Shown here: piece after piece, positions 19,912 to 64,000 of the stretch
Numbering within the stretch: position 1 is the stretch's first letter
Layout: each line of letters starts with the position of its first letter
NCBI RefSeq assembly: GCF_004359215.1
Contig: NW_027152031.1
Coordinates: 671,252-735,251, forward strand
Direction: 5' to 3'
DNA: 64,000 nt
Origin: Bremia lactucae
Taxonomy: Eukaryota; Oomycota; Peronosporomycetes; Peronosporales; Peronosporaceae
The notes under the pieces: generated by a model
Told to the model about the DNA's origin: nothing
What the model saw: only the letters and a program-made list of their open reading frames with translations
Database searches by the model: none
Translations under genes and position numbers: made by a program

Positions 19912-19939
19912 ATATCTCAGCTGTTTTTGAAGTAAATAC

Positions 19940-25773: not shown

Positions 25774-26040
25774 CTTCTGACGGACGAGGCCCTCACCGTC
25801 AGCAGCCAGCTGGGAACGAGGCTCCCAGCTGTCACGTGAAGGTGGATAACCAAGCCAGCGATCAAGATAACTCGTTCGCTGCCCCTTCACATCACGGTAA
25901 TTCTGGATACGTTCCACAAGGAAACGTTGATCACCGTGGGAATCCACCAATGATTGTGGTGGAGGAGGGAAAATAGATCCGAACCGTGTGTCGGATCTAA
26001 TGTCGAGGATCGACAAAATCGATCACTTCCTCCATGATTT
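25774..26040 (-). pseudogene. Family C chromodomain end of pol (C2)
   Basis: RFLVERIQNYRDVKGQRTSY followed by a W..GYPPS.DSWEP core (about 25950-25820) is a chromodomain, the C-terminal module chromoviral integrases use to recognise chromatin marks. The first aromatic of the YLVRW motif is followed by D instead of V (YLDRWLGY). The antisense region and 3' LTR expected next are missing at the B4 junction. Confidence 0.85.
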
Positions 26041-27830
26041 GGAGGAGATACTTGACCACTAGCGCGGCAGCGTCGCTCGTTGGAGCAGACGGTGCAGGAT
26101 CACCATATCGAACGGTTGCAAGACTGTTCGAAGAGTGCGTACTCCATGTTGGAGTACGAACGGAAATATCACACTGTTCGCGATGAGCTGTCGTCAGCTC
26201 ATTGCAGTTTCGAGGATATTTGGAACCGGCATGAGAAACTTCAGGTTCAACATGAGAATCTGGTTCGCGATCACAATAATCTTTTAGGGATTCTTGAAAA
26301 GGGTCGTCAAATCCGTCCTCGGAAGAAGCCGCGTACTGATGGAACGGGCGGAGCCGACCAACGTAAAACGTAGGATGCGTTCGCATCCTACGTGGCAATT
26401 CTATTGTGTACGCATTGCCTCTGCGATGCAGTACACGGAGAGGCCCAATGAACTTGGGTAGTAGTTTACTGCTATTCACACTAGTGACTAAACGCTTAGG
26501 TAGGTTTACCGTAGAGAGTAGCACTAGATCATTAATTTCAAATGAATGAACATTTGGTCTTCCACGTTTGACTGCATTCCGTTTCTGACGGTCCACTGCG
26601 TTAGCAATGTAATCCTGAACGAAACGGATTATTGATTCTCAAGCCAGAAGAAATTTCTCTGCTGACGCATTTGTTTTGTCTTTTTCAGTACGCTTTGTGC
26701 GTACTGCCATGAGATCATTCTCGTCTTCGATGTCGATTTCGTCGACACCGACATCACTCGCGTCGTTGTTAAATCGATGCGTGATGAGCATGAGCCAGAA
26801 ATGCTTTTGCTCGTGCGAGTCCACCCCCCCTTAAACTAGAGGATCCTTCTAATTGGGTGGGTATGCGAGGATGACGTAAGCCATTCACGAAGAGCGGTGT
26901 ATGCGTTGTAGACGCATGTACCGAATTATTGATGGCGAATTCCACCATCGGTAAAAACTCCCTCCAATTTGGATGCGATTGGACGTACCTCGAAGTATCT
27001 CTTCCAGGACGCGATTTACGCGTTCTGTTTGACCATCCGTTCCTGGGTGGTCGGATGTTGACATATTGAGCCGTGTTCCGAGAAATCGGAACACGGATTG
27101 CCAAAACTCCGCCGTGAACAGTGGATCTCTATCCGAGACCTGTTCACGGGGTAACCCATGGAGTTTAAATACCGTGTCGATAAAGACACGGGCACAACCC
27201 GGAGCCGTAATTGACTCTGGTACTGCAGCAAGATGTACCATCTCGCTGAATCTGTCTACAAAACAAGGATTCCATTGTTTTTGTAATCGTCTTCATGAAA
27301 TCCGAAGACGAAGTCCATAGATACGGACTGCCAACACTCTACCGGAAGTGGTAGAGGTTGAAGAGGTGCACGGGATGAAGGGCTAGGCTTCATTCGTTGA
27401 CATACGTCGCAAGCATGAATGTACTTGCGCACGAACTGATACTGGCGGGGCCAGTAAAAGTCGCGACTGACTGTGAGGTAAGTCTTCTCACGTCTACGAT
27501 GCAAACTTGTTGGAGCATCGTGACACTCATACATGATGCGCAAGCGCAAATCATTGTGAGTTGGGACGACGACACGTGGGGTGTCGCCGGTAACGGCTGT
27601 GTAATTCAATAAGCCGTTACGTGTTGTGTATCGATCGGATGACGATCGATAAAACGCCGGTAAATCTGTAAAAGATTTATCGGATGGATTCATTAAAAGA
27701 TCCATCGAGCATAGAAGGTCCTTATCTTCTGTGTAGGCTTTCTTTATGTCATCATCTAGGGTTGATGACGGAACACTCGTAGTGAGTGTTGCAAAAGTAG
27801 GATTATTTTCACTATTGGAGTGCAATGCTG
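26040..27830 (-). pseudogene. Family C integrase, broken (C2)
   Basis: Zinc module HDAPTSLHRRREKT, FYWPRQYQFV, CDVCQR (27560-27390). Catalytic core MVHLAAVPES, VSDRDPLFTAEFW and DGQTERVN (27241-26990) with Asp/Asp/Glu. FAINNSVHAST near 26950. GPY/F module LLPKFIGPLRVLHRRGNAY, RTHPTFYVGRLRP (26470-26350). The frames change at about 27250, 26880 and 26620, so it is not translatable as one protein. Confidence 0.8.
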
Positions 27831-27839
27831 ACTCGAAAT

Positions 27840-28400
27840 CGGGTCGGCGTGATAACGCATCAGCAACGACATTAAGTCGTCCTGGTTTTTATTCGACGGA
27901 GAAATTATAATCCGCGAAGAAGGATAGCACCCTCGCCATTCTTTGCGAAAGGTGTGGGCTGTTTACGGCCGTGCGTAATGACGCATGAACGGTCTATCTC
28001 CTCGGAAATAGACCCTAAATTTAGCCAATGCATATTTTATGGCAAGGAGTTCCTTGTCATGCACTGGGTAATTGCGTTCAGCTGGTTGCAGCTAATGCGA
28101 TTGGTAACAGACGAGGCGCTCCGCAACGTCTGTATCGTATTGCATTAACGCGCTAGCGATTGCAAAATCGCTGGCGTCACAGACCATATGGAATGGTCTG
28201 TCTTGATCTGCAATCGCCCATCTTGGCGATTGCATCAAGCTTTGCTTGATACCTTCAAACGAACGCTGACAATCAGTGTTTCATAACCATTTCTCGTCTT
28301 TTTCCAAGAGACGAGCGAGATGAACTTTATTCTGCATAATTGCGAGAGTACTTGTGCAAGTACGCCGCTAAACCAAGGAACTTCCGAAGTAACTTCACAT
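27840..28400 (-). pseudogene. Family C RNase H region, broken (C2)
   Basis: Homologous to RNase H of C1 and C4 (CDASDFAI-type block near 28180, YPVHDKELLA-type near 28070-28040, YTD-type near 27990). No frame stays open across it. Confidence 0.6.
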
Positions 28401-28413
28401 CGACTGGAACTGG

Positions 28414-28599
28414 CTAGTCGGTGATTGTCTTAATCTTTTCGAGATCAGGGCGCACGCCATATTTACCGACGATGCACCCAAGAAGTGGTATTTCGCTTGC
28501 AGCGAATATACACTTCTTGAGATCTGCGTACAACTTATGCTTTCGCATAAGTGTAAGAACCTGACGAACGTGAGTTTTATGAACTTCCACGTCCGTCTT
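28414..28599 (-). pseudogene. Family C RT thumb fragment (C2)
   Basis: Open frame reading VRQVLTLMRKHKLYADLKKC, IPLLGCIVGKYGVRPDLEKI, which lies just C-terminal to the YFDD palm in related elements. The palm itself falls in the gap. Confidence 0.75.
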
Positions 28600-29542
28600 N
28601 NNNNNNNNNNNNNNNNNNNNNNNNNNNNNNNNNNNNNNNNNNNNNNNNNNNNNNNNNNNNNNNNNNNNNNNNNNNNNNNNNNNNNNNNNNNNNNNNNNNN
28701 NNNNNNNNNNNNNNNNNNNNNNNNNNNNNNNNNNNNNNNNNNNNNNNNNNNNNNNNNNNNNNNNNNNNNNNNNNNNNNNNNNNNNNNNNNNNNNNNNNNN
28801 NNNNNNNNNNNNNNNNNNNNNNNNNNNNNNNNNNNNNNNNNNNNNNNNNNNNNNNNNNNNNNNNNNNNNNNNNNNNNNNNNNNNNNNNNNNNNNNNNNNN
28901 NNNNNNNNNNNNNNNNNNNNNNNNNNNNNNNNNNNNNNNNNNNNNNNNNNNNNNNNNNNNNNNNNNNNNNNNNNNNNNNNNNNNNNNNNNNNNNNNNNNN
29001 NNNNNNNNNNNNNNNNNNNNNNNNNNNNNNNNNNNNNNNNNNNNNNNNNNNNNNNNNNNNNNNNNNNNNNNNNNNNNNNNNNNNNNNNNNNNNNNNNNNN
29101 NNNNNNNNNNNNNNNNNNNNNNNNNNNNNNNNNNNNNNNNNNNNNNNNNNNNNNNNNNNNNNNNNNNNNNNNNNNNNNNNNNNNNNNNNNNNNNNNNNNN
29201 NNNNNNNNNNNNNNNNNNNNNNNNNNNNNNNNNNNNNNNNNNNNNNNNNNNNNNNNNNNNNNNNNNNNNNNNNNNNNNNNNNNNNNNNNNNNNNNNNNNN
29301 NNNNNNNNNNNNNNNNNNNNNNNNNNNNNNNNNNNNNNNNNNNNNNNNNNNNNNNNNNNNNNNNNNNNNNNNNNNNNNNNNNNNNNNNNNNNNNNNNNNN
29401 NNNNNNNNNNNNNNNNNNNNNNNNNNNNNNNNNNNNNNNNNNNNNNNNNNNNNNNNNNNNNNNNNNNNNNNNNNNNNNNNNNNNNNNNNNNNNNNNNNNN
29501 NNNNNNNNNNNNNNNNNNNNNNNNNNNNNNNNNNNNNNNNNN
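28600..29542. other. Assembly gap, 943 N
   Basis: Unsequenced. In C1 the same two flanking points are about 2.65 kb apart and hold gag C-terminus, protease and RT palm, so the stated length is either a guess or reflects a deletion. Confidence 0.95.
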
Positions 29543-29916
29543 ATACAACTCGCTAAGAGTCGTATGTGCTGGGCATATGCGTGAACATCACGCTTGCCTT
29601 GCTTGAGTTTCAGAAGCTCTGAACGAGCTCTGAACTCAGCCCTTGGCGGTTCAAACGTCTGTTTGAGCCGGGCTTTAAAAGCCTCTAGTGACCCAAAGAC
29701 GTATGGGTCGCGCAACTTAAGGCCCAATGCCCAAGTTTTGGCACGACCTGCCAAATTTGATTGAGCGAATGCGACTTGCATTTGCTCGTCGACGATGTGA
29801 CGTGCCCTTATGGCATCGTCAGACTCGACAAACCATCTCAAGAGGGAGTCTTCTTTGACTCCTCTATACTTAGAGATGTCAATCTTTAAGGTTTCGGGAC
29901 GACGCGTTTGCGTCAT
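29543..29916 (-). CDS. gag: Family C gag, 5' part (C2)
   Basis: Open from ATG 29916 (MTQTRRPETLKIDISKYRG) to the gap. Retrotransposon-gag-type capsid region: LRWFVESDDAI, GRAKTWALGL, FEPPRAEFRARSELLKLKQG, VHAYAQHIRLL. Lies in the same frame as the short upstream ORF (30234-29932), separated by one TAG and 15 bp. Almost identical to C1 gag in inverted orientation. Confidence 0.75.
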
Positions 29917-29931
29917 CCCAGGTACAGGGGT

Positions 29932-30234
29932 CTATACCTGTTGTAAATTCAACAGGTCTGCCTGTTGAGAGCCTTGCTGATTCAGCAAGGCTACCTTCTC
30001 CTTCATCTCGTCAAGTTCATGTTTTATGAATTTGGCGATGGCTGAATGGAGGGCATCTCTGTCCAAATTGGACAGCATTGCCAAGATGGCATCGTTTTCT
30101 ACGGTCGAACTCATTCGTTCGACCGCAGTCTTTTCTATGTCACTTAGAAAGGAGTAGCTTTTACGCGAAACGTGATGCGTACTTTGGAGCAGGATCAGCA
30201 GCAGCAATCTCCCACTATCATCTAACATGTCCAT
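29932..30234 (-). CDS. Short ORF in frame before gag (C2)
   Basis: 100 codons, MDMLDDSGRLLLLILLQS to NLQQV, ending TAG. Predicted mostly helical (ERMSSTVENDAILAMLSNL, KHELDEMKEKVALLNQQG). It could be the N-terminus of gag, with TAG read through or a defect inherited by both copies. Differs from the C1 copy at one residue (QSTHHV versus QSTHPV). Confidence 0.5.
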   Translation of the reverse strand: MDMLDDSGRLLLLILLQSTHHVSRKSYSFLSDIEKTAVERMSSTVENDAILAMLSNLDRDALHSAIAKFIKHELDEMKEKVALLNQQGSQQADLLNLQQV

Positions 30235-30273
30235 GTTAGGTGAAGGAAACGTGGTCCTTGGACGGACTACAAA

Positions 30274-30282
30274 GTGCTACCA
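30274..30282 (-). other. Primer-binding site, family C (C2)
   Basis: TGGTAGCAC on the - strand, two bases inside the 5' LTR end. Confidence 0.55.
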
Positions 30283-30284
30283 GG

Positions 30285-30732
30285 TGTTACAGGGCACTAC
30301 GGCTTGTACTGCTTCAGTACAAGTCCACTTCGCACTGCTTCAGTTGCGAGTGGTGCCTTAGTTATTTCACGTACACTAGTACGTGCAGAGGAAGACTTCT
30401 CTTTAAGGTAATTAGCTTAAAGAGGGTTAAATGAAAAATGTATTAATATAATTAACTATTTCTTCTTTATATCTGTTAACTCTAACTTAAATATAAACTA
30501 ATACTAAACATGCAATTGAAATCTTATCTTATCTTATCTGTCTCTCTCTTTTATTTACATCTACAGTTGATTCGTCTGCGGGATAAATAGATTTAATGGC
30601 CTATACCTATTTATGGATAAGATTTCTGAGCATTACTATTTAAAGTAATATCCTCATGTTATCTACCTTTACATAATATATTAACTAACAACCTTTAAGC
30701 GTTAATTTCATGTAACGATACAGCCCGTTACA
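30285..30732 (-). repeat. Family C LTR (5' LTR of C2)
   Basis: 448 bp, TGTAACGGGC...GCCCTGTAACA on the - strand. It is followed on its inner side by the primer-binding site and gag. It cuts into a family B LTR whose remainder starts at 30733. Confidence 0.85.
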
Positions 30733-30840
30733 CATTATGAATGGGATTTGAATGATATTTCCTATTTTAAAATTAAAAATGGGTATTTGACCCATAATGT
30801 GAAATGTACTAGATTAGCGGTTTACCAACCGAAGGATAAT
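30733..30840 (-). repeat. Family B LTR remnant (3' LTR of B3)
   Basis: Matches the part of family B LTRs around ATGGGATTTAA and the GATTAGCGGTTTACCAACCGA block of the B3 5' LTR (51495-51520). The outer part was removed by the C2 junction. Confidence 0.65.
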
Positions 30841-34554: not shown

Positions 34555-34976
34555 TGTAATGGGGTGTATCGTTACTTGTAATAAACACTTAAAGGTTGAT
34601 AATATGAGGATATTACTTTAAGAAGTAATGCTCAGAAATCTTATCCATAAATAGATATAGGCCATTATATCTATTTATCCCGCAGACGAATTAACTGTAG
34701 ATGTAAATAAAAGAGAGAGACAGATAAAAAAGATAAGATTTCAATTGCATGTTTAGTATTGGTTTATAATTAAGTTAGAGTTAACAGATAGAAAGAAGAG
34801 ATACTTAATTATATTAATACATTTTTCATTTAACCCTCTTTAAGCTAGTTACCTTAAAGAGAAGTCTTCCTCTGCACGTACTAGTGTACGTGAAATAACG
34901 TAAGGCACCACTCGCAACTGAAGCAGTGCGAAGTGGACTTGTACTGAAGCAGTACAAGCCGTAGTGCCCTGTAACA
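34555..34976 (+). repeat. Family C LTR (5' LTR of C1)
   Basis: 422 bp, TGTAATGGGGTG...GCCCTGTAACA, followed by primer-binding site and gag. Near-identical inverted counterpart of 30285-30732. Confidence 0.9.
34875..34958. other. Three consecutive hairpins before the family C primer site
   Basis: Stem 1: CACGTAC/GTACGTG (34875-34892). Stem 2: CACTCGCA/TGCGAAGTG with one bulged A (34909-34935). Stem 3: CTTGTACTG/CAGTACAAG, loop AAG (34938-34958). CTGAAGCAG occurs at the apex of both stems 2 and 3. The same set ends every family C LTR in the window. Confidence 0.65.
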
Positions 34977-34978
34977 CC

Positions 34979-34987
34979 TGGTAGCAC
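34979..34987 (+). other. Primer-binding site, family C (C1)
   Basis: TGGTAGCAC two bases after the 5' LTR. Confidence 0.55.
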
Positions 34988-35026
34988 TTTGTAGTCCGTC
35001 CAAGGACCACGTTTCCTTCACCTAAC

Positions 35027-35329
35027 ATGGACATGTTAGATGATAGTGGGAGATTGCTGCTGCTGATCCTGCTCCAAAGTACGCATCCCGTTTCGCGTAA
35101 AAGCTACTCCTTTCTAAGTGACATAGAAAAGACTGCGGTCGAACGAATGAGTTCGACCGTAGAAAACGATGCCATCTTGGCAATGCTGTCCAATTTGGAC
35201 AGAGATGCCCTCCATTCAGCCATCGCCAAATTCATAAAACATGAACTTGACGAGATGAAGGAGAAGGTAGCCTTGCTGAATCAGCAAGGCTCTCAACAGG
35301 CAGACCTGTTGAATTTACAACAGGTATAG
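35027..35329 (+). CDS. Short ORF in frame before gag (C1)
   Basis: 100 codons beginning MDMLDDSGRLLLLILLQS and ending TAG at 35327-35329. The gag ATG at 35345 is in the same frame (318 bp from this ATG). Rich in hairpins on the DNA level (35136-35159, 35186-35202, 35269-35291, 35293-35312). Likely a gag N-terminal extension or leader ORF; function unknown. Confidence 0.5.
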   Translation: MDMLDDSGRLLLLILLQSTHPVSRKSYSFLSDIEKTAVERMSSTVENDAILAMLSNLDRDALHSAIAKFIKHELDEMKEKVALLNQQGSQQADLLNLQQV

Positions 35330-35344
35330 ACCCCTGTACCTGGG

Positions 35345-36552
35345 ATGACGCAAACGCGTCGTCCCGAAACCTTAAAGATTGACATCTCTAAGTATAGAGG
35401 AGTCAAAGAAGACTCCCTCTTGAGATGGTTTGTCGAGTCTGACGATGCCATAAGGGCACGTCACATCGTCGACGAGCAAATGCAAGTCGCATTCGCTCAA
35501 TCAAATTTGGCAGGTCGTGCCAAAACTTGGGCATTGGGCCTTAAGTTGCGCGACCCATACGTCTTTGGGTCACTAGAGGCTTTTAAAGCCCGGCTCAAAC
35601 AGACGTTTGAACCGCCAAGGGCTGAGTTCAGAGCTCGTTCAGAGCTTCTGAAACTCAAGCAAGGCAAGCGTGATGTTCACGCATATGCCCAGCACATACG
35701 ACTCTTAGCGAGTTGTATNNNNNNNNNNNNNNNNNNNNNNNNNNNNNNNNNNNNNNNNNNNNNNNNNNNNNNNNNNNNNNNNNNNNNNNNNNNNNNNNNN
35801 NNNNNNNNNNNNNNNNNNNNNNNNNNNNNNNNNNNNNNNNNNNNNNNNNNNNNNNNNNNNNNNNNNNNNNNNNNNNNNNNNNNNNNNNNNNNNNNNNNNN
35901 NNNNNNNNNNNNNNNNNNNNNNNNNNNNNNNNNNNNNNNNNNNNNNNNNNNNNNNNNNNNNNNNNNNNNNNNNNNNNNNNNNNNNNNNNNNNNNNNNNNN
36001 NNNNNNNNNNNNNNNNNNNNNNNNNNNNNNNNNNNNNNNNNNNNNNNNNNNNNNNNNNNNNNNNNNNNNNNNNNNNNNNNNNNNNNNNNNNNNNNNNNNN
36101 NNNNNNNNNNNNNNNNNNNNNNNNNNNNNNNNNNNNNNNNNNNNNNNNNNNNNNNNNNNNNNNNNNNNNNNNNNNNNNNNNNNNNNNNNNNNNNNNNNNN
36201 NNNNNNNNNNNNNNNNNNNNNNNNNNNNNNNNNNNNNNNNNNNNNNNNNNNNNNNNNNNNNNNNNNNNNNNNNNNNNNNNNNNNNNNNNNNNNNNNNNNN
36301 NNNNNNNNNNNNNNNNNNNNNNNNNNNNNNNNNNNNNNNNNNNNNNNNNNNNNNNNNNNNNNNNNNNNNNNNNNNNNNNNNNNNNNNNNNNNNNNNNNNN
36401 NNNNNNNNNNNNNNNNNNNNNNNNNNNNNNNNNNNNNNNNNNNNNNNNNNNNNNNNNNNNCGTATGCCAAAAAGGGCAACGGTCGCGGATCCGACGTTGT
36501 TGCGAAATCGCAACAGCGAGGCGGACCGCCAAAAAATGGACGGGGTCAGTAG
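35345..36552 (+). CDS. gag: Family C gag, interrupted by assembly gap (C1)
   Basis: The 5' part, 35345-35718, is open and almost identical to C2 gag (capsid helices, VHAYAQHIRLL). The gap 35719-36460 hides the middle. The 3' part, 36461-36552, reads YAKKGNGRGSDVVAKSQQRG and ends TGA-like after GRGQ, in a frame that typically follows a CCHC knuckle. The zinc knuckle itself is not visible. Whether the two sides belong to one copy is uncertain. Confidence 0.6.
35719..36460. other. Assembly gap, 742 N
   Basis: Begins at exactly the same base of gag (after GCGAGTTGTAT) as the gap in C2 reaches on its right side, which suggests a repeat boundary in the assembly. Confidence 0.95.
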
Positions 36553-36602: not shown

Positions 36603-37121
36603 TTGACTAAAGTTGCTCCAGACACACAATCATTATGTGTCTCTGCACCTGGTGATGAGGTATCCCTCATCACCTTGAAATTAAAAGTGACAAATGATTT
36701 GTCACTTAGAGCCCTAGTGGACTGTGGAGCGTCGAATAACTTTATTCGTCGCCAGTCGCTAGAGGGTCGTAGGCTCAAATATGTTGGGCGCGACATCCCT
36801 CCAACGAGGATGACGGTGCGTCTAGCGACAGGCGCATCGATAACAGTGATGATACGCGTAGTGAAATTTCACTACACGTTAAGAGATTTACAGTATGATG
36901 ATGATTGCATCGCACTGGATTTGGATGACAAATTTGATGTCATCCTAGGTTTACCTTGGCCCAGAAAGTATGAGCCAAGAATCAGGTGGCAGCATCGATC
37001 CGTAAAGATGCCTGCCACTCGTTCATCAGATGGCCATCTGATGATGGTCTTGGAGCGTCCACAAGCGTGTGGATGTACTACGACTGAGTGCGATGGTTTC
37101 ACTTGTGGTACGGGTCGTTAG
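36603..37121 (+). CDS. Family C aspartic protease region (C1)
   Basis: 172-codon open frame with a retropepsin-like fold pattern: LRALVDCGASNNFIRRQSLE (D-C-G in place of the usual D-S/T-G, a variant found in other Ty3/Gypsy proteases), VRLATGASITV, then the second lobe LDLDDKFDVILGLPWPRKYEP and IRW. Best-preserved protease in the window. The frame ends at 37121; the start chosen is the first ATG and the true boundary is inside a Gag-Pol precursor. Confidence 0.75.
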   Translation: MTKVAPDTQSLCVSAPGDEVSLITLKLKVTNDLSLRALVDCGASNNFIRRQSLEGRRLKYVGRDIPPTRMTVRLATGASITVMIRVVKFHYTLRDLQYDDDCIALDLDDKFDVILGLPWPRKYEPRIRWQHRSVKMPATRSSDGHLMMVLERPQACGCTTTECDGFTCGTGR

Positions 37122-37503
37122 TACGACTGCACAAGATCACAGTGTGATTACCAATCCACCTGTGTAGTCAGCTGCCGGTGGCTGTGCTAATGCAGGCAGC
37201 GCCGACGGTCCACCACTCGAAGAAGTCGAGTGGATTGAGACATTAGTGTACGCCTGGCGGGCGACAATCAAGGAGTATACCGGTTGCCCCAAAGGGACAA
37301 CACGATGATCCTAGGTCGAGTAGAGAGTCGACCGTAGAGGACCCGACTGTGATAGCGCAATCACACTCGGAAGACGTTGAGGGAAGAGGTCCCCACGTAC
37401 TTGAGGAGAAATCTCCTCAAATAGTTGAAGTTACTAGACTTCTAGATCCCGAGGATTTAATCCCTCGGCAGCCTGTGGATAAATCCCAGGAAAAACCGAG
37501 ACA
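37122..37503 (+). pseudogene. Family C protease-RT linker (C1)
   Basis: Spacer equivalent to the linker of other copies. Interrupted by stops; no domain recognised. Confidence 0.45.
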
Positions 37504-38604
37504 TTGAATGTCTTTGTTAATGACGGATCCAGAGTAGGCGCTTATACTCTTGATCTGTATGCGCCTCCGAAGTTAACTTCGGAGATAACTCAATTACCAA
37601 CCTTAGAACCCAAGCGGTTCTTGAGAAAGATCTGCATAGTGGTAAAATCAAGTAGCTGCGTGCTTGTCACAGAGGACGAATACGTAACCTATATTCGGCC
37701 AGCAGTAATTTTTGCAGAGAACGAACGATTGAGAGAGATACTGCTCAATCGTGGGAGTCACTTAAGACAAATCCCTTTACACAAGGATTTGATTAAATTC
37801 AGGGGTGTATTCTCTTAAACAATGCAAGTCACATAAGGATGAAGGCACTCGACATGGGATCGAGCTAAAACCGGGCTCGTAGTACTGTGTCATGAAGCAG
37901 TGGCCACTGCCTCGTGAACAAGTACTTGCGATCGATAAATTTTTATCAATCGATTCAAAGCGGGCCATGTGAGGGAGCCAACCTCCCTACATAGCTCTTC
38001 GACCTTCTGTGTGCGAAAGGCCACAGGAGGGTGGCGGATACTGCACGCATTCATTAAACTGAATGCTGCAACGGTACCGGATCAAACGCCGATACCTAGA
38101 AAAGACGTAACACAGATGATATGTCTAAAAGTACCATCTTTCGTCTATGGATCTGATGAAGGGATTTTCTAGATTCTTATGCGTAAACGCGACAACCCGT
38201 ACACAGCAGTGAGCACTCCCAGCGGGATGGTCTGGGAATGGCTAGTAATGCCACAGGGGCTTAGTAACGTCCCTGCAACATTCAACAGATTCGTAACGAA
38301 GCTGTTGAGACCGGTGCGGGAATTTGCGCCGAGTTATTTTGACGATGTATTCGTCCATAGCCGGGCCATGGACAGAAGGCGGATGTGGAAGTTCATAAAA
38401 CTTACGTTCGTCAGCTTCTACACTTGCGAAAGCATAAGTTGTACGCAAATCTCAAGAAGTGAATATTCGCTGCAAGCAAAATACCACGTTTTGGTAGCAT
38501 CGTCGGTAAACACGGCGTGTGCCCTGATCCCGAAATTATCAACTCAATTACCGACTGGCCAGTTCCAGTCGATGTCAAGGGACCAAGAAAGTTCCTTGGA
38601 TTAG
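37504..38604 (+). pseudogene. Family C reverse transcriptase, broken (C1)
   Basis: The N-terminal extension 37504-37818 is open. Fingers and palm follow in changing frames: QWPLPREQVLAIDKF, STFCVRKATGGWRILHAF (37990-38060), TAVSTPSGMVWEWLVMPQGL (38200-38260), and an intact catalytic box YFDD at 38335-38346 followed by VFVHSRAMD. A frameshift just after it (near 38375) destroys the thumb reading. Stops lie near 37815 and 38170. Confidence 0.8.
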
Positions 38605-39150
38605 CGGCGTACGTGCAAAAGTACTTCCGCAATTATGCCGGGATGACAGTTCATCTCTCTCGTCTCTTGAAAAAGACGAAAAATGGTCATGGGACGCTGA
38701 TTGTCAGCGTTCCTTTGAGGGTATCAAGCAAAGCTTAATAAAATCGCCAATGATGGCAATTGCAAACCACCAACCTTTTTTATTTGGTCTGTGGCGCCAG
38801 CAATTTTGCTATTGTCTGTGCGTTAATGCAATATGACACAGACGGCGCAGAGCGCGTCGTCTGTTAATAATCGCATCAGCTGCAACCAGCTGAACGCAAT
38901 TACCCAGTGCATGACAAGGAACTTCTTGCAACGAAATATGCACTGGCTAAGTTTAGGGTCTATCTCCTCGGAGATAGACCGCTCATCGTATGTACGGACC
39001 ATGCGTCGTCACGGCCGTAAATAGCCCACACCTCTCGCATAGAATGGCGAGGTGGCTATCCTTCTTCGCGGAGTATAATTTCTTTGTGGAATATAAACCA
39101 GGACGACTACGTGTCGTCGCTGATACGTTATCACGCCGACCTAATTTCGA
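38517..39150 (+). pseudogene. Family C RNase H, broken (C1)
   Basis: ITDWPVPVDVKGPRKFLGLA (connection) at 38540-38610, then RNase H blocks in several frames, ending in an open piece VVTAVNSPHLSHRMARWLSF, FAEYNFFVEYKPGRLRVVAD at 39000-39130. Confidence 0.7.
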
Positions 39151-39159
39151 GCCGGCTGC

Positions 39160-40987
39160 GCATTCCAACAGTGAAAATAAATTCACTGTTGTAACACTGA
39201 TTTCAAGTATTCCGTCATCAACCTTGTTTGATGACATAAAGAAAGCCTACGTAGAAAATAAGGACCTTCTGAGCTTAATGGATCATCTGATGAATCCATC
39301 CGATAAATTTTTAAAATATTTACCGGCTTTATATCGATCGCCCTACGATCGATACACAACACGCAACGGCTTATTGTATTACACAGCCGTTGCCGGCGAC
39401 ACTCCACGTGTCGTCGTCCCAACTCGCAATGATTTGCGCTTGCGCATCATGTATGAGTGTCACGATGCAGAACAAGTGGGCATCGTGGACGTGAGAAAAC
39501 TTATCTCACAGTAAGTCGCGACTTATACTAGCCCCGCCAGTATCAGTTCGTGCGCAAGTACATTCGTGCTTGCGAGGTATGTCAAAGGGTGAAGCCTAGC
39601 CCTTCATCCCGTGCACCCCTCCAATCTCTACCACTGCCGGCAGAATGTTGGCAGTCCGTATCTTGGACTTCGTTTTCGGATTTCCCGAAGACGATCACAA
39701 AAACAATGGAATCCTTCTTTTTGCAGACAGATTCAGAAGATTGTACATCTTGTTGCATACCAAAGTCAATCACGGCTCCGGGCTGTGCCCGTGTCTGTAT
39801 CGACACGGTTTTCAGACCCCACGGTTTACCCCGTGAACTGGTCTCCGATAGAGATCCACGGCTCACGCTGAGGTTTTGACAATTCGTGTTTTGATCTCTC
39901 GGGACACGGCTGACTATGTCAACTTCTGATCATCAGAGACAGATGGTCAGACGGAACGCATAAATCGCGTACTCGAAGAGATTGTTTGAAATTACGTCCA
40001 ATCGTATCCGAATTGGAGCGAGTTTTTACCGATGGTCAAATTCGCCATCAATAATTCGGTGCATGCGTCTACATCGCAAACACCGTTCTTCTTGAATGGC
40101 TTACGTCATCCTCGCATACCCACCCAATTAAAGGGATCCTCCAGTTTGAAAAGGGGGTGGACTCGCACGAGCAAAAACCATTTCTGGCTCATGCTCATCA
40201 CGCGTCGAAGTTAACAACGACGTGAATGATGTCGATGTCGAAGCAATCGACACCGAAGATGAGAAAACTCTAATGGCAGTGCGCACAAAGCGCACTGAAA
40301 AGGACAACACAAATGAGTTAGCAGAGGAATTTCTGCTGACTCGAGAATCAGTAATCCGTTTCGTACAGGATTCCATTGCTAATGCAGTGGACCGTCAGAA
40401 ACGGAACGCAGACAAACATGGAAGAGCAAATGTTCTTTCATTTCAAAGTAATGACCTAGTACTACTCTCTACGGGAAACTTACCTAAGCGTGTAGTCACT
40501 AATGTGGGGAGCAGTAAACTTACTACCCAACTTCATTGAGCTTTTCCGTGTACTGCATCGCAGAGGCAATGCGTACACAATAGAATTGCCGCGTAGGGTG
40601 CGAACGCATCCTACGTTTTACGGTGGTAGGCTCCGCCCGTACCATTATTACGCGGTTTCTTCCGAGGACGGATCTGACCACCCTTTTCAAGAATCCCTAA
40701 AAGATTCTTGTGGTCACGAACCAGATTCTCATGTTAAATCTGGAGTTTCTCATGTCGGGTCCGAAGATCCTCAAAACCGCGATGAGAGGACGACCGCTCA
40801 TCACGAAAAGCGTGATATTTCCGTTTGTATTCCAACATGGAGTACGCACTCTTCGAACGGTCTTCCAACCGTTCGATATAGTGAGCATGCAGCGTCTGCT
40901 CAACGAGCGACGCTTACCGCGCTCGTGATCAAGTCCCTCCTCCAATTCATGGAAGAAGTGATCAAGTTTGTCGATCTTCAACTCTAG
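39160..40987 (+). pseudogene. Family C integrase, broken (C1)
   Basis: The linker is open to 39514 (LRLRIMYECHDA). Zinc module C-terminal part CEVCQRVKPSPSS at 39570-39610. Catalytic core in several frames, with ELVSDRDPRLTLRF near 39840-39870. FAINNSVHASTSQTPFFLNG at 40038-40098. GPY/F module HRRGNAYTIELPRRVRTHPT near 40555-40615. The linker to the chromodomain is open to 40987. Multiple frameshifts. Confidence 0.75.
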
Positions 40988-41029
40988 ATCTCACACATGG
41001 GTCGGATCTAATTTTCCCTTCTCTGCCAC

Positions 41030-41192
41030 AACCATTGGTGAATTCCCACGGTGGTCAACGTTTCCTTTTGGAGTGTATTCAAAACCGCCGTGATGTGAAG
41101 GGGCAGCGAACGAGTTATCTTGTTCGCTGGAGCGGTTATCTACCTTCACATGACAGCTGGGAGCCTCGTTCCCAGCTGGTTGTTGACGTGAG
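41030..41192 (+). pseudogene. Family C chromodomain (C1)
   Basis: RFLLECIQNRRDVKGQRTSY followed by LVRWSGYLPSHDSWEPRSQL: all aromatic-cage positions of the motif Y..RW.GY....WEP are present. Cut at its C-terminal flank by a solo LTR. Confidence 0.85.
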
Positions 41193-41637
41193 TGTAACGC
41201 GGGGTATTGTTAGCTGAAATTAACACTTAAGGTTGTTAACTAACATATTATCTAAAAGGTGGATAATATTTGGAGAATTTTACTTTATATAGTAATGCTC
41301 GGAAATCTTATCCATAAATAGGTATAAGCCGTTATATCTATTTATCCCGCAGACTAATCAGCTGCAAACGTAAATAAAGAGAGAGAGACAAACAGATTAA
41401 ATTCCAATCGCATGCTTAGTATTAGTTTATAATTAAGTTAGCATCAACAGGTAGAAAGAAGAGAAACTTAATTATTAATACAGTTTTCATTTAACCCTCT
41501 TTAAGGTAGTTGTCTTAAAGAGAAGTCTTCCTCTGCACGTACTAGTGTACGTAAAGTGACGTAAGGCACCACTCGCAGTTGAAGAAGTGCGAAGTGGACT
41601 TGTACTGAAGCAGTACAAGTCGTAGTGCCCCGTTACA
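41193..41637 (+). repeat. Nested solo LTR, family C
   Basis: 445 bp, TGTAACGCGGGG...GCCCCGTTACA. The right flank TTGAG and left flank GTGAG match in 4 of 5 bases. In C3 the uninterrupted site reads GACGTTGAGGGCC (about 46694), so this is a later insertion reduced to one LTR by LTR-LTR recombination. Confidence 0.85.
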
Positions 41638-42731
41638 TTGAGGGCCTCGTCCATCAGTATGACGAGAGCCATTCATGGATCAGAAGGTCCATCGGGAAAC
41701 ACGCGCCCCTGGCGCATGTAAATCGATTGCAAAACGTCAATCTCATCGCGCATCTCGATCGAGATGCGAGCCCTTCCCCAGGGCGAAGAAAGGGAATAGA
41801 CATCCCTTTTGCTTTCTTCGTGTTGTCAACACAACACGGACAGGGATCACCCCACGTGAGGCATGGAAGCCCAGCCTCACGTGACAACCGATGCAATTTA
41901 TACTTGCACCGGTTGGAATTCGTTTCTCAAACTTAACACGATTCGCGTTAAGTCTATGAAGCCAGGCTTCGCGTCCAATGTCTTTGACATTGCGAATGAA
42001 CGCGCTCCAGGCTTGCAAAAGCGAGACCTTATCTCGCTTATTGTTGCCACTAAACCATCGATGCTTAAGAAAAGCATCGAGATAATAATCTTCCTTAGCG
42101 CAAAATTTCTTCGCGCTGGGATCAAGGCCATGTAGCTTTGTCGCAATAAATAAGGGATATTTATTGTGAGGAGTAGTCTCTCCAGACAAGCTATTGATTA
42201 GCTGTTCGGGCAAAAGCCACGGCTTCTTTGCAGGGGCGAGATGAGACATTGATTGTCTTCACTCCCCTGAGTGGTACCCACTGAAGCAGGGGTACCACAA
42301 GGATTTTTGTTACAATGGCTTATGCCATCGTCATCAACTTGCACATAACAGGTGCAGGTGACCGTACGGGAGACGGTGCTGGCGAAGAGGAATCATTATC
42401 TTCGTCAGAACCGAACATGCTGTAGCGAATGCTAACAGCACGTCTACCCGAATGAGCCCCTCATTCGTGGGATCATTGTCAGCCGCCTGACGATGATGAT
42501 CAGGTTCCTGTTCTGTTCTCCCCAAGTCGGCCATTTCGTCCGACTCGCATTCGTAGTCGACCTCCAAAGAGGAGTCGCATTTTCGTGGTGTATCACCACG
42601 TGCACCCGCAACATTTAGAATTGCTAAATATGACACTACAGCAGAGCCGAAGGCGCCGCACTATTCGCATACCGCATGGACTTGTTAGCCATGCGATAGA
42701 ATTAAACATGATGGTTCTTACCAATCGACAT
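41638..42731 (-). pseudogene. Antisense reading region of family C (C1)
   Basis: On the strand opposite gag-pol, from ATG 42731 towards the chromodomain. Blocks shared with C3 and C4: GAR/GD(T/S)P, VDYECESDE, DDEDD-rich acidic stretch, then a conserved ~85-residue core QLINSLSGETTPHNKYPLFI, LHGLDPSAK, WFSGNNKRDKVSLLQAW, FIRNVKDIGREAW (about 42190-41970). In C1 the core is open for 168 codons (42249-41743). No signal peptide, no known domain. Broken upstream by stops. Confidence 0.5.
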
Positions 42732-42797
42732 CGTTTTTAATTAAGTGGTCTTATAGTGATCACTCTACCGAATGACAGTCAGAGTGATTGTCGCTTA

Positions 42798-42808
42798 GTG
42801 AGGGGTGA
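42798..42808 (+). other. Polypurine tract of C1
   Basis: GTGAGGGGTGA, purine-rich except one T at each side, directly before the 3' LTR. Confidence 0.55.
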
Positions 42809-43236
42809 TGTAACGGGGTGTATTGTTACATGAAATTTACTTTTAAAGGTTGTTAATTAATATATTATGTAAAAGGTAAATAATATTTGGAGAGTATTAA
42901 TTGATGGTAATATTCTAAAAGCTTATCGATTGGTTGATTTAGACCATTATATCTACTTTCTTCGCGGTCCAGTCAGCGCTGGACGCGCGCAAAGAGAAAG
43001 ACAGATAAGACTTTAGTACATGTTTTGTATTAGCTTATAATTAAGTTAGTATTAAGTTGATAGAACAGAAAAACTTAATTATATTAATACTGTTTTTAGT
43101 TAACCCTCTTTAAAGCAAGTGTTTTAAAGCGAGTCTTCCTCTGCACGTACTAGTGCACGTGAAGTGACGTGAGGCCCACCACTCGCACTGAGGCAGTGCG
43201 AAGTGGACTAGTACGAGTCAGTAGTGCCCCGTTACA
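42809..43236 (+). repeat. Family C LTR (3' LTR of C1)
   Basis: 428 bp, TGTAACGGGGTG...GCCCCGTTACA. It differs visibly from the 5' LTR at 34555 (for example, CACTGAGGCAGTG against CAACTGAAGCAGTG and a TTCTTCGCGGTCCAGTCAGC segment shared with the C4 LTR), so the two are unlikely to be partners from one recent insertion. Confidence 0.85.
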
Positions 43237-45790: not shown

Positions 45791-46720
45791 TCATGGCAGT
45801 ACGCACAAAGCGTACTGAAAAAGACAAAACAAATGCGTCAGCAGAGAAATTTCTTCTGGCTTGAGAATCAATAATCCGTTTCGTTCAGGATTACATTGCT
45901 AACGCAGTGGACCGTCAGAAACGGAATGCAGTCAAACGTGGAAGACCAAATGTTCATTCATTTGAAATTAATGATCTAGTGCTACTCTCTACGGTAAACC
46001 TACCTAAGCGTTTAGTCACTAGTGTGAATAGCAGTAAACTACTACCCAAGTTCATTGGGCCTCTCCGTGTACTGCATCGCAGAGGCAATGCGTACACAAT
46101 AGAATTGCCACGTAGGATGCGAACGCATCCTACGTTTTACGTTGGTCGGCTCCGCCCGTACCATCAGTACGCGGCTTCTTCCGAGGACGGATTTGACGAC
46201 CCTTTTCAAGAATCCCTAAAAGATTATTGTGATCGCGAACCAGATTCTCATGTTGACCCTGAAGTTTCTCATGCCGGTTCCAAATATCCTCGAAACTGCA
46301 ATGAGCTGACGACAGCTCATCGCGAACAGTGTGATATTTCCGTTCGTACTCCAACATGGAGTACGCACTCTTCGAGCAGTCTTACAACAGCTCGATATGG
46401 TGATCCTGCACCGTCTGCTCCAACGAGCGACGCTTGCCGCGCTAGTGGTCAAGTATCTCCTCCAAATCATGGAGGAAGTGATCGTTTTTGTCGATCCTCG
46501 ACATTAGATCCGACACACGGTTCGGATCTATTTTCCCTCCTCCACCACAATCATTGGTGGATTCCCACGGTGATGAACGTTTCCTTGTGGAACATATCCA
46601 GAACTACCGTGATGTGAAGGGGCAGCGAACGAGTTATCTTGTTCGCTGGCGTGGTTATCCACCTTCACATGACGGCTGGGAGCCTCGTTTGCTGACGTTG
46701 AGGGCCTCGTCGGTCAGTAT
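45791..46720 (+). pseudogene. Family C integrase end and chromodomain (C3)
   Basis: Begins mid-integrase (MAVRTKRTEKDKTNASAEKF), TGA-type stop near 45862, then an open frame 45907-46617 with FEINDLVLLSTVNLPKRLV, the GPY/F module FIGPLRVLHRRGNAY and RTHPTFYVGRLRPYH. The chromodomain RFLVEHIQNYRDVKGQRTSY, LVRWRGYPPSHDGWEP is at about 46578-46685. Nearly identical to C2 in this part. Confidence 0.8.
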
Positions 46721-47833
46721 GACGAGACCCATCCGATGGTTCAAAAGGCCCATCGAAAACACGCGCCCCTGGCGCTTGAAATTCGATTGCAAAAGGTCAA
46801 CCGCATCCCGCATCTCAATACAGATGCGAGCCCTTCCCCTGGGCAAAGAAAGGGATTAGACATTCCCTTTTACCCTCTTCGAGTTGTCAACACAACACGG
46901 ACAGGGATCACCCCACGTGAAGCCTTGAAGTCTAGCCTAACGTGACAACCGATGCAATTTATACTTGGCACCGTTTGGAGTTCGTTCTCAAATTTAACGC
47001 GATTCGCGTTAAGCTTTTAAAGCCAGGCTTCGCGTCCAATGTCTTTGACATTGCGAATGAACGCCCTCCACGCTTGCATAAGCGAGACTTTATCTCGCTT
47101 CTTGTTGCCACTAAACCATTGATGCTTAAGAGAAGCATCGAGATAAAAATCTTCTTCAGCGCGAAAGTTCTTCGCGCTGGGATCAAGGCCATGTAGCTTT
47201 GTCGCAATAAACAAGGAATATTTATTGTGAGAAGTAGTCTCTCCAGACAAGCTATTGATTAGCTGTTCTGGCAAAAGTCACGGCTTCTTTTCAGAGGCGA
47301 GATGAGACATTTTACTGTCTTCAGAGTGGTACCCACTGAAGCAGATGTACCACAAGAACTTTTATTACGATGGCTTACGCCATCGTCATCACCTTGGACA
47401 GAAACAGGTGCAGGTGACCGTACGGGAGACGGAACGAGCGATGAGGGATCATCCTCATCGTCGGAACCAGTTAAACTATTAACTCGTCTATCAGAAAGAG
47501 CCCTCTCATTCGAAGGCTCATAGTCAGCTGCTTGACGTCTATCAGGCGACTGTTCTATTCTCCCCGAGTTGGTTATTTCGTCCGACTCGCATTCGTAATC
47601 GACCTCCCAAGAGGGGTCGTATTCAGGTGGTGAATCACCACGTGCACCCGCAACATCTAGGGTTGCGCGAGTGAAAGATACTACGGCAGACGTTCCGTCT
47701 GCCGCAAGAGATAACAGTGCGTCACCCGCGGCTGCACGAACCGCAGCCGAAGGCGCAGCACTATTAACAACCCGCATGAGTTTGTTCTTCATGCGATGGA
47801 ATTTAAAATGATAGTTCTGACCAATCAACATCG
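46655..47833 (-). pseudogene. Antisense reading region of family C (C3)
   Basis: Best-preserved copy: open from ATG 47831 for 190 codons (MLIGQNYHFKFHRMKNKLMR, then an Ala-rich stretch, VDYECESDE and an acidic GSDDEDDPSS segment), ending near 47259 at a frameshift. The conserved core QLINSLSGETTSHNKYSLFI to NVKDIGREAWL continues in another frame (47274-47017), and a third piece (46846-46655) overlaps the chromodomain on the opposite strand. Confidence 0.5.
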
Positions 47834-47897
47834 TTTTTAAATTAAGTGGTCACATAGTGATCACTCCATCCAATGACAGTCAGAGTGATTGTCGTTT

Positions 47898-47910
47898 AAG
47901 GGAGGGGTGA
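47898..47910 (+). other. Polypurine tract of C3
   Basis: AAGGGAGGGGTGA directly before the 3' LTR. Confidence 0.65.
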
Positions 47911-48360
47911 TGTAACGGGGTGTATTGTTACATGAAATTAACACTTAAAGGTTATTAAATAATATATTATCTAAAAGGTAGATAATATTTGAAGGATATT
48001 ACTTTAAATAGTAATGATCGGAAATCTTATCATAAATAGGTATAGGCCATTATATCTATATATCCCGCAGACTAATCAACTGTAGATGTAAACAAAAGAG
48101 AGAGACAGATAAGAGAAGATAAGATTTTAATTGCATGTTAGTATTAGTTTATAATTAAGTTAGAGTTAACAGATAGAAAGAAGAGATACTAAATTATATT
48201 AATACAGTTTTCATTTAACCCTCTTTAAGCTAGTTACCTTGAAGAAATGGCTTCCTCTGCACGTACTAGTGTACGTGAAATAACGTAAGACACCACTCGC
48301 AACTGAAGCAGTGCGAAGTGGCCTTGTACTGAAGCAGTACAAGTCGTAGTGCCCCGTTTA
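47911..48360 (+). repeat. Family C LTR (3' LTR of C3)
   Basis: 450 bp, TGTAACGGGGTG...GCCCCGTTTA (terminal ACA altered). Family B RT sequence resumes at 48361 with AATGG, close to ATAGG at 34550-34554. Confidence 0.85.
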
Positions 48361-58936: not shown

Positions 58937-59191
58937 TGGTATAGCAGGCTAAAGTTGCCCTATGTTACACAATAACCGTTAAGCACACTTTGTGTACTTA
59001 AGGGGATGGTCAATTACATAAGTGAAGTAATTACACCCACCCCTTGGGTGTGGTTCACATTGTGATCCACCTTGTGAATGTGATGCAACTGAGGGCATTC
59101 ACAACGTGGATGACGGCTAGCGTCATCCAAGATACGAGGTATTTCGAACAATACGCTCGCAATACATATCAGTGCATATCTACAGAGATGG
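58937..59191 (+). repeat. Family A 3' LTR, first half (A2)
   Basis: Aligns with 51572-51815 (GCTAAAGTTG, AACCGTTAAG-like, TGACGGCTAGCGTCATCCAAGA, CTCGCAATACATAT, CTACAGAGATGG). It is interrupted at 59191 by the C4 insertion; the rest is outside the window. Confidence 0.8.
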
Positions 59192-59590
59192 TGTAACGGG
59201 GCACTACTGACTTGTACTGCCTCAGTGCGAGTAGTGCCTCACTTCACTTCAAGTAAACTAGCACGTGCAGAGGTGGACTCTCTTTAAAACACTTGCTTTA
59301 AAGAGGGTTTACTAAAAATTATATTTATATAATTAAGTTCTTCTGTTTCTATCTATTTAATACTAACTTAATTATAAGCTAGTAAAAAACATGTAATAAA
59401 GTCTTATCTGTCTCTCTCTTTGCGCGCGTCCAGCGCTGACTGGACCACGGAGAAAGTAGATATAACGGTCTATATCTACCAATGGATAAGCTTTAGAATA
59501 TTACCATGTAAAGATATTATCTACCTTTTAAATAATATATTATTAACAACCTGAAAGTGTTAATGTCATGTAACGATACACCCTGTTACA
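59192..59590 (-). repeat. Family C LTR (3' LTR of C4)
   Basis: 399 bp, on the + strand TGTAACGGGGCAC...CCCTGTTACA. Shares the GCGCGCGTCCAGCGCTGACTGG-type segment with the LTR at 42809, so it belongs to the same subgroup. Confidence 0.85.
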
Positions 59591-59603
59591 TCACCCCTCC
59601 CTT
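59591..59603 (-). other. Polypurine tract of C4
   Basis: AAGGGAGGGGTGA on the - strand, identical to that of C3. Confidence 0.65.
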
Positions 59604-59667
59604 GTACGACAATCACTCTGAATGTCATTGGATAGAGTGGTCACTATAAGACAACTTAACTAAAACG

Positions 59668-60775
59668 ATGTTGATTGGTTAGAACCATCATTTTTAATTC
59701 TATTGCATGGCCTTCGGCTGCGGTTCATGCAGCCGCGGGCGACGCACTGTTGTCTCTTGCGGCAGACGTTCCGTCTGCCGAAGTATCGTCTTCTACCGCA
59801 ACTCTAAATGTTGCGGGTGCACATCTCTTTGGATATGAGTGCGAGTTGGTCGTAACGGCTGACTCGGGGAGAACAGAACAGTCGCCTGATCATCGTCAGG
59901 CGGCTGACTATGAGCCTTCTAATGAGGAAGCTTATTCGGGTCGTGCTGGTAGCATTCGCTACAGCATGTTCGGTTCCGACGATGAGGATGATTCCTCATC
60001 GCCAGCACCGTCTCCCGTGCCGTCACCCGCACATATTTCTCTGCGTGATGATGACGATGGCGTGAGCCATCGTTATAAAAGTACTTGTGGTACCCCTGCT
60101 TCAGTGGGTACTACTCAGGGGATCGTAGACACTAAATTGCCCTTGAAAAAAAGGCTTGGCTTTTTCCGAACAGCTAATCAATAGCTTGTCTGGAGAGTCA
60201 ATTCCTCACAATAAATATCCCTTATTTATTGCGACAAAGCGACATGGACTTGATCCCAGCGCGAAGAACTTTCGCGCTAAGAAAGATTTTAATCTCAATG
60301 TTTTTCTTAAGCATCAATGGTATAGTGGCATTAACAAGCGAGATGAAGTCTCGCTGGTGCAACCCTGGAGCGCATTCGTTCGCAATGTCAAAGACATTGG
60401 ACGCGAAGCCTGGCTTTAAAAAGTCAACGCGATTCGCGTTAAGTTTGAGAAACGAACTCTACTCGATGCAAGGTAAAAATTGCATCGGTTATCACGTGAG
60501 GCAGGACTTCCGTGCTCACGTTGGTGATCCCTGTCCGTGTTGTGTCGACAACACGTAACGAGTGAAGGGGATGTCTATTCCCTTTCTTCGCCCAGGGTAA
60601 GGGCTCGCATCTCTATTGAGATGCGGGATGCGATTGACGTTTTGCAATCGATTTACATGCGCCAGGGGCGCGTGTTTTCTGATGGGCCTTCAAAATTATC
60701 GGATATGTCTCGTCATACTGACGGACGAGACCCTCAACGTCAGCAAACGAGGCTCCCAGCTGTCATGTGAAGGTG
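59668..60775 (+). pseudogene. Antisense reading region of family C (C4)
   Basis: ATG 59668 aligns with the C3 start, but codon 5 is TAG (CAG in C3). An open frame 59675-60184 follows with AADVPSAEVSSSTATLNVAG, SGRTEQSPDHRQAADYEPSN and an acidic MFGSDDEDDSSS segment. The core QLINSLSGESIPHNKYPLFI to NVKDIGREAWL is at 60165-60417 in another frame. The end overlaps the chromodomain on the opposite strand. Confidence 0.5.
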
Positions 60776-60950
60776 GATAACCACGCCAGCGAACAAGATA
60801 ACTCGTTAGCTGCCCCTTCATATCACGGTGGTTCTGGATACGTTCCACAAGGAAACGTTGATCACCGTGGGAATCCACCAATGGTTGTGGTGGAGGAGAG
60901 AAAATTAGATCCGACCCATGTGTCGGATCTTGAGTCAAAATTCGACAAAC
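60696..60950 (-). pseudogene. Family C chromodomain (C4)
   Basis: RFLVERIQNHRDMKGQLTSY, LVRWRGYPPSHDSWEP on the - strand at about 60855-60745. All cage-position aromatics are kept. Confidence 0.85.
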
Positions 60951-62829: not shown

Positions 62830-62859
62830 AGAGAAATTATACTCCGCGAAGAAGGATAG

Positions 62860-63240
62860 TCACCTCGCCATTCTTTGCGAGGGGTGTGGGCTATTTACGG
62901 CCGTGCGTAATGACGGACGGTCCGTATATACGATGAACGGTCTATCTCCTCCGAGATAGACCCTAAACTTAGCCAGTACGTATTCCATGGCAAGGAGTTT
63001 CTTGTCATGCACTGGGTAATTGCGTTCAGCTGGTTGCCGCTGACGCGATTGGTAACAGACGACGCGCTCCGCGCCGTCTGTATCATATTGCATTAACGCA
63101 CAGCCGATTGCGAAATTGCTGGCGTCACAGACTTCATGGAATGGATTGTCTTGATCTGCAAACGCCAAGATGGGCGATTGCATCGAGCTTTGCTTGATAC
63201 CTTCAAACGAACGCTGACAATCAGCGTTCCATAGCCATTT
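62860..63240 (-). pseudogene. Family C RNase H (C4)
   Basis: Open 63183-62860: FHEVCDASNFAIGCALMQYD, NYPVHDKKLLAMEYVLAKFR, YTDRPSLRTAVNSPHPSQRM. Core acidic positions appear present. Frameshifts lie on both sides. Confidence 0.75.
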
Positions 63241-63982: not shown

Positions 63983-64000
63983 ACTTGTTCACGAGGCAGT

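Follow-up and report, generated by a model that had tools for sequence, protein, structure and literature searches.

Why should a retrotransposon be built, in nearly all its readable parts, of short perfect hairpins? The question is raised by a stretch of 64,000 nucleotides from the oomycete Bremia lactucae (assembly GCF_004359215.1, contig NW_027152031.1, positions 671,252 to 735,251; hereafter the window), in which a preliminary description had noted a chain of inverted repeats in an element called family C, present here as copies C1 to C4. By its sequence, family C is a chromodomain Ty3/gypsy long terminal repeat (LTR) retrotransposon, since Pfam matches to its pieces run from gag to chromodomain and LTR-type repeats accompany them. 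We found a high density of hairpins in all regions and copies measured, which bears out the view that they are a property of the whole element and not of one structured RNA. With somewhat less than even confidence, we read them as the product of template switching that recurred, while the lineage replicated, between imperfect inverted repeats lying close together. The parts of family C in the window are given below, with densities as perfect stems of at least 7 bp per kb of readable sequence.

34588..35700, plus strand: C1 5' LTR, leader and start of gag (self-comparison; Retrotrans_gag match in 35345-35718); 12.9 stems per kb in 34588-34976 (LTR) and 16.3 in 34977-35344 (leader and gag start).
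36603..41187, plus strand: C1 protease, reverse transcriptase (RT), RNase H and integrase with H2C2 and SH3 (Pfam pieces for protease, RT, H2C2 and SH3_Tf2-1; RNase H by position only); 5.4-13.6 stems per kb in the pol regions, the first of which was measured from 36461.
41188..41637, plus strand: C-type LTR between C1 pol and the remaining C1, probably nested or solo (self-comparison); excluded from the C1 stem, mismatch and folding counts.
41638..43236, plus strand: C1 antisense-frame region and 3' LTR (self-comparison, open frame on the minus strand); 11.1 stems per kb in 41638-42804.
25777..30733, minus strand: C2 from the end of the chromodomain to the 5' LTR, part of which reads N (chromodomain, SH3 and H2C2 matches); 10.5 stems per kb.
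45791..48358, plus strand: C3 3' part of pol, antisense-frame region and LTR (Pfam, self-comparison); 9.7 stems per kb.
59191..64000, minus strand: C4 LTR, antisense-frame region and 3' part of pol (Pfam, self-comparison); 9.8 stems per kb.

We counted perfect stems of at least 6, 7 or 8 bp with loops of 3-13 nt and compared them with dinucleotide shuffles (50 per window copy). C1 to C4 carry 14.4-16.2 stems of at least 6 bp per kb against 2.2-2.6 in the shuffles, and 8.7-10.5 of at least 7 bp against 0.5-0.7 (pooled, 179 such stems in 18,849 nt: 65, 42, 25 and 47); stems of at least 8 bp lie ∼32- to 42-fold above shuffles. Within 34555-36000, part of which reads N, the stretch counted (34555-35718) holds 20, 12 and 7 stems of at least 6, 7 and 8 bp, where 1000 dinucleotide shuffles gave means of 2.6, 0.65 and 0.15 and maxima of 8, 4 and 3. 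When synonymous codons were shuffled in six open pol pieces, the shuffles held ∼13 stems of at least 6 bp against the 68 observed, although the shuffle maximum equalled the observed count in one piece at 6 bp and in another at 7 bp; the excess also withstood this shuffling in three antisense-frame pieces. Both controls that the preliminary description had proposed thus leave family C far above expectation, and numerous copies at separate places carry the same stems, so that chance, a composition artefact or an assembly error has next to no claim as the explanation. General repetitiveness was rejected as a cause as well, since direct repeats are only slightly above chance (8, 5 and 2 against 3.4, 1.9 and 1.7 expected) and mirror repeats show no clear excess in family C. 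Stems in the pol pieces keep to no clear codon phase (26, 24 and 18), and the sequences matched no Rfam family at gathering thresholds and no tRNA. By region, stems of at least 7 bp number 6.7-15.8 per kb in LTRs, 2.7-13.6 in the coding parts of C1 and 11-12 in the antisense-frame regions; the idea that noncoding parts are richer was dropped because the LTR range overlaps that of coding DNA. Window 2553-3561, which has no blastn similarity to family C in the self-comparison, is hairpin-rich too (8.9 stems of at least 7 bp per kb).

Five individual hairpins are referred to below.

34647..34678, plus strand: perfect 13-bp hairpin of the C1 LTR with a loop of 6 nt; no other stem in the window reaches 13 bp with a loop of 3-29 nt.
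35136..35159, plus strand: 9-bp perfect hairpin, intact in six of seven other aligned copies.
35269..35291, plus strand: 10-bp perfect hairpin with loop AAT, intact in all seven other aligned copies.
28209..28234, minus strand: C2 hairpin with a 6-nt loop, AAGATG, that is exactly reverse-complementary to the C4 loop CATCTT (copy comparison).
62522..62552, minus strand: 9-bp hairpin whose homologue in other copies has a T-A/C-G exchange on both sides (copy comparison).

The hairpins first named by inspection are all there: in C1 at 35136-35159 (9 bp), 35186-35202, 35269-35291 and 35293-35312, together with the gag pairs TTTGGCA/TGCCAAA, GACCCA/TGGGTC and GCGTGA/TCACGC, which can be read in the sequence; in C2 at 28179-28201 (9 bp) and, as ACTTATGC/GCATAAGT, at 28533-28552; and in C4 at 62372-62388, 62427-62454, 62522-62552, 62561-62583 and 62593-62611, within a stretch (62221-62720) said to hold about a dozen stems, where we counted 13 of at least 6 bp. 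A hairpin every 30-40 bp was an overestimate, the median spacing of stems of at least 7 bp being 46-82 nt in five sequences measured.

What the stems look like bears on how they arose. Among stems with at least eight Watson-Crick pairs, perfect ones outnumber imperfect ones in family C (12:0 in L074, 22:7 in L006, 41:18 in C1, 19:7 in C2 and 26:11 in C4) and in families E (L047, 12:3) and F (L064, 15:3), whereas in every case the shuffles reverse the balance, with imperfect stems 1.7-8 times commoner (five shuffles, few counts). Loops are of hairpin size: 142 family C stems of at least 7 bp have loops of 3-10 nt where ∼7 are expected, and beyond 14 nt the excess falls to ∼2-fold; the 21 loops of 1-2 nt are about what chance pairing inside loops of 3-4 nt would yield. 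Both strands fold alike. Folding z scores are -3.75 to -4.15 (sense) and -3.76 to -4.48 (antisense) in old copies; in young copies the ranges are -5.2 to -6.4 (sense) and -4.5 to -6.7 (antisense), with the energy 43-54% below shuffles; "young" here means judged so by likeness and open frames, without dating. The strand difference is at most 1.8 standard errors in all six C sequences, the largest being in L074, where sense folds better. Three tallies give G-T no advantage over A-C: single mismatches within stems (22 G-T, 25 A-C, 14 of transversion type), the first outer mismatch beyond stems (20 G-T, 27 A-C, 73 other) and one-sided changes between copies (125 G-T, 138 A-C, summed over 18 overlapping comparisons). 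There is no consistent G-U preference, a mild one being compatible with a fourth tally, on stems of at least eight pairs, of 21 G-T to 11 A-C; that tally apart, family C shows neither the better folding of the sense strand nor the tolerance of G-U that would be expected of a selected RNA.

These features matter for the most serious rival, selection for local hairpins, under which a beaded RNA or complementary DNA (cDNA) would leave more copies through packaging, protection or poor access for silencing guides, pairs would be gained by point changes, and stems would decay after insertion. The preliminary description had proposed a beaded genomic RNA, and the low folding energy of young copies accords with it, as does a G-U that was the likely intermediate at one pair. 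Yet the pairing is mostly perfect and Watson-Crick, and selection on RNA is weakened because the antisense strand folds as well and A-C mismatches are about as common as G-T in three of the four tallies. We regard selection as possible, on balance doubtful, and return to it below.

The stems are a feature of the live element, because the copies most alike are densest and private changes neither spare arms nor add stems. A ∼1-kb part of integrase was compared in 21 copies: stem density is 12-16 per kb in L074 and the six copies that resemble it by 97% or more, and 6-14 per kb in the remaining 14; numerous stems are common to several copies and differ by few changes. Equal numbers of broken stems (26 and 26; 16 and 16) are uninformative, as almost any base change breaks a stem, and we therefore tallied private substitutions by position: 62 of 5,191 sites in arms (1.19%), 26 of 1,916 in loops (1.36%) and 202 of 13,822 elsewhere (1.46%), so that arms are about neutral, with slightly fewer changes than elsewhere. 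The seemingly lower divergence of stems than of loops was set aside as largely ascertainment, perfect stems in one copy probably being the sites unmutated there. In the integrase set, private substitutions made two new stems where five were expected; in the LTR-gag set, gains were 12 against 4.5, of which nine came from L004, whose non-homologous LTR was misaligned, leaving three. This L004 is a C copy whose non-homologous LTR bears hairpins of its own, one of them 13 bp. A property of the live element that decays after insertion is equally what selection predicts, and pairs found only in the young against only in the older group (12:2, 5:3, 6:2 and 5:3 in four groupings of unequal ascertainment) speak for it as well.

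The hairpin excess varies strongly between lineages. We used 25 of 30 integrase loci, omitting the near-duplicates L048, L050, L055, L057 and L061, and expressed stems of at least 7 bp as observed over shuffled: ∼48 in the young family C loci L074-L076 and 16.3 in other C loci (L077-L081), and, among other gypsy families, 1.8 in D, 2.8 in a D-like group, 3.8 in G, 3.8 in L039/L062, 6.3 in E and 11.8 in F. Thirty RT-bearing loci (L009-L038, two of them confirmed as RVT_1 by Pfam) are near chance at 1.1-fold. Five random 4-kb stretches gave 4.7-fold, unevenly (0.75-5.5 stems per kb), and repeats inside them may be the source. In the window, 18363-20887 and 43240-45780 each have one stem of at least 7 bp, no more than their shuffles; within the latter 2.5 kb lies an apparent host gene, an open frame at 44367-45095 matching COPI_assoc (PF08507). 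The repetition on families A and B suggested by the preliminary description gave a weaker excess than in C, but not zero (2.1- to 2.6-fold for stems of at least 6 bp in five of six stretches and 1.5-fold in the sixth). Its statement that family A has far fewer stems fails for 55300-55700 (six of at least 6 bp in 401 nt) and holds for the whole surrounding element, 51898-58946 (1.4 stems of at least 7 bp per kb). Two family A copies lie head to tail, ∼7,146 bp apart, in window ∼3.6-18 kb, with long stretches of 100% identity.

This distribution bears on a further alternative, that host DNA replication or repair (quasi-palindrome correction or cruciform processing) made the stems, with family C as a preferred substrate, for example if highly transcribed. 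One study describes such processes in yeast only under high transcription (PMC3820800), and another describes spacer inversions (PMC8604942); the excess in other gypsy families fits a host process too. So does a 31-bp perfect fold-back with a 4-nt loop (∼1964-2029) in L059, a member of a hairpin-poor gypsy family; together with a second fold-back close by (from ∼1766), it resembles inverted copying inside a single insertion. Against a host process stand the near-chance RT-bearing loci, the hairpin-poor stretches of the window, and the lack of new stems from private changes, and we consider it improbable. Because private changes add no stems and the RT-bearing control loci are near chance, we place the process in the replication of the element.

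Loop inversions were sought in four alignments, over copy-pair segments with at least three differences, of which 1,560 were flanked by a hairpin and 150,372 were not. Exact inversions occurred at only two sites, both hairpin loops lying between intact arms as template switching predicts: TCTC to GAGA in L085, inside an 11-bp stem, and the loop that reads AAGATG in C2 and CATCTT in C4 (window 28209-28234). They account for 53 hairpin-flanked and 18 other segments, the 18 being the L085 site compared with copies whose arms are changed or gapped, and the reversed-only and complement-only controls gave 0 and 0 events. Looser criteria added weaker candidates. Point changes, through which selection would gain its pairs, would not be expected to produce such inversions.

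In the copying process that we prefer, the growing strand would fold back or switch between the arms of a near-hairpin, so that one arm would be copied against the other, perfect complements would replace mismatches, and the loop would occasionally be copied the other way round. Repeated many times, the process would work as a ratchet, with the encoded protein as a restraint in coding regions; it would end at insertion, after which stems would decay about as fast as the remaining DNA. Copying is favored over a selected RNA fold because of the near perfection of the arms, the strand symmetry, the hairpin-size loops, the loop inversions and the restriction to the live phase. Overall, the pattern is a somewhat better match to arm-mirroring copying than to a selected RNA shape. 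For the same reasons, palindromes formed by fold-back in reverse transcription, one of three ideas in the preliminary description, fit best. We infer that arms are copied at all and that the copying step would be the element's own reverse transcription; differences in strength between families may then reflect their polymerases or cycle.

Several observations weigh against copying. (i) At one hairpin the right arm reads ACGG, ACGA, AAGA or GAGA in different copies, a ladder of alleles, one base apart, that all encode DPR and each add a pair; it could be obtained by copying tracts of different length, by recombination of variants, or by selected point changes, and as a synonymous series it suits selection. 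(ii) No arm was clearly converted over several bases in any of the copies compared; in L075, CC has become TT in one arm relative to other copies, and L082 holds a one-step intermediate. (iii) No set shows an excess of stem gains, and arm copying was thus not seen in progress. (iv) Two-sided Watson-Crick changes between copies (34 of 3,329 pairs, against 22 of 4,669 in a slid control, in 18 overlapping comparisons) are ∼2 times the control, which both models allow and which selection can claim, and two-sided compensatory pairs within C number 2 against 0.5 expected in one grouping and 0-1 in the other three. (v) In aligned integrases of families C, F, E and G (26 stems of at least 6 bp), an exact hairpin center is common to families in three pairs (C-E, C-G and E-F) where 0.18 are expected, a number that random shifts matched 5 times in 2000 and synonymous shuffles once in 200; some sites are therefore kept or recurring, as selection also predicts, although 20 of the 26 stems have no counterpart at the same center, which selection does not lead one to expect. 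(vi) The fourth mismatch tally leans to G-T. (vii) LTRs are not clearly denser in stems than the coding parts. (viii) Amino-acid change relative to Peronospora relatives is not significantly raised in arms (19 of 85 codons, against 41 of 219 outside; p 0.52), and the notion that palindromes generally drive protein change was rejected. (ix) The inversions number only two, and PMC8755829, which proposes a break-repair route for human microinversions, indicates that host DNA, too, can undergo inversion at inverted repeats. Whether substitutions keep pairing, as the preliminary description had wanted to see, therefore has a mixed answer, and selection remains a serious rival in view of the stepwise synonymous gains, the shared sites, the lack of a significant rise in amino-acid change and the lack of multi-base conversion. 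One stretch of L074 does resemble palindrome-driven protein change, reading FVFG, PEDE, HKNN and LVFV where Peronospora has PKDARGNTG-like sequence.

Family C itself is of a familiar kind. Matches to PF03732, PF08284 and PF12384 exceed their cut-offs and PF19259 falls just under, giving family C a Ty3-type gag and aspartic protease. In C1, RT (RVT_1, 38173-38601) precedes integrase, of which H2C2 is partial and below cut-off (39532-39876); Integrase_H2C2 is over cut-off in C2 and C4, and rve is below it in C4. A chromodomain (PF00385, 33.7 bits, cut-off 25.1) lies in the frame 25534-26022 beside C2, in this copy only; the C1 and C3 pieces scanned gave no match to it. LTR-type repeats lie at ∼34588-34976, 41188-41637, 42805-43236, 47911-48357 and 59216-59594 (self-comparison; termini are approximate, and pairing into single insertions is unassigned). 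Between pol and the 3' LTR, C1, C3 and C4 each have an open frame antisense to the element (41746-42258, minus; 47262-47849, minus; 59675-60181, plus) of 169-196 amino acids, whose proteins bring no Pfam family to its cut-off. C1 and C2 are 98.5% identical in the 5' part (29543-30671 against 34590-35718) and ∼86% identical in pol, which suggests mosaic elements. In alignments, the integrase shares 68-72% identity with five proteins from Peronospora and 52-54% with five from Phytophthora; its closest named relatives are from Peronospora matthiolae (68%) and P. effusa (65%), followed by Phytophthora, and some unnamed public proteins reach 80%. The family is apparently abundant, with 2,622 preliminary candidates for the gag piece (40 scored) and 14,708 for the integrase (136 scored).

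Family C thus shares gag, protease, RT, H2C2 integrase, SH3 and chromodomain with chromoviruses, including Peronospora and Phytophthora relatives, compared by protein only, such as "Transposon Tf2-8 polyprotein," and differs from them in its hairpin chain. In agreement with the preliminary description, a full-text literature search, which mostly did not cover subscription papers, found no chromovirus or other retroelement described as a chain of perfect hairpins. LTR palindromes have been reported for plant Sireviruses. Some RNA viruses have genome-scale ordered RNA structure, with folding energy below that of shuffles along the genome; family C is alike in this, but it folds equally on both strands, as short, separate and mostly perfect hairpins, to the extent given above for young copies. 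Maize transposable elements with microRNA-like secondary structure also have local hairpins inside them, which PMC10760457 presents as regions like microRNA precursors, whereas the stems of family C are mostly 7-13 bp and occur throughout its readable parts. A mechanistic parallel is in yeast coding genes, where spacer inversion with arms of 10-11 bp, ascribed to template switching, was found in 10 genes among 50 strains (PMC8604942); perfect arms, short spacers and exact spacer inversion are common to both, but in family C hairpins occur throughout a mobile element and no arm was caught being converted over several bases.

If selection proves to be the cause, few coding RNAs known to us would be as strongly folded as that of family C, and what the beads protect against would become the question. 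If arms are copied, a known and usually rare kind of mutation, quasi-palindrome correction, would have remodeled an entire retroelement genome; mobile elements could then show structure-like signals without a selected RNA function, and the many young and old copies in one genome would allow template switching to be measured in rate and direction. We propose, more tentatively than template switching itself, that family C may be a self-palindromizing retrotransposon, whose own replication copies the arms of near-hairpins so that the whole genome drifts toward perfect hairpins with a strength set by the lineage. If so, the structure of its sequence would be a product of mutation and not of function, and it could provide a record of past replication cycles.
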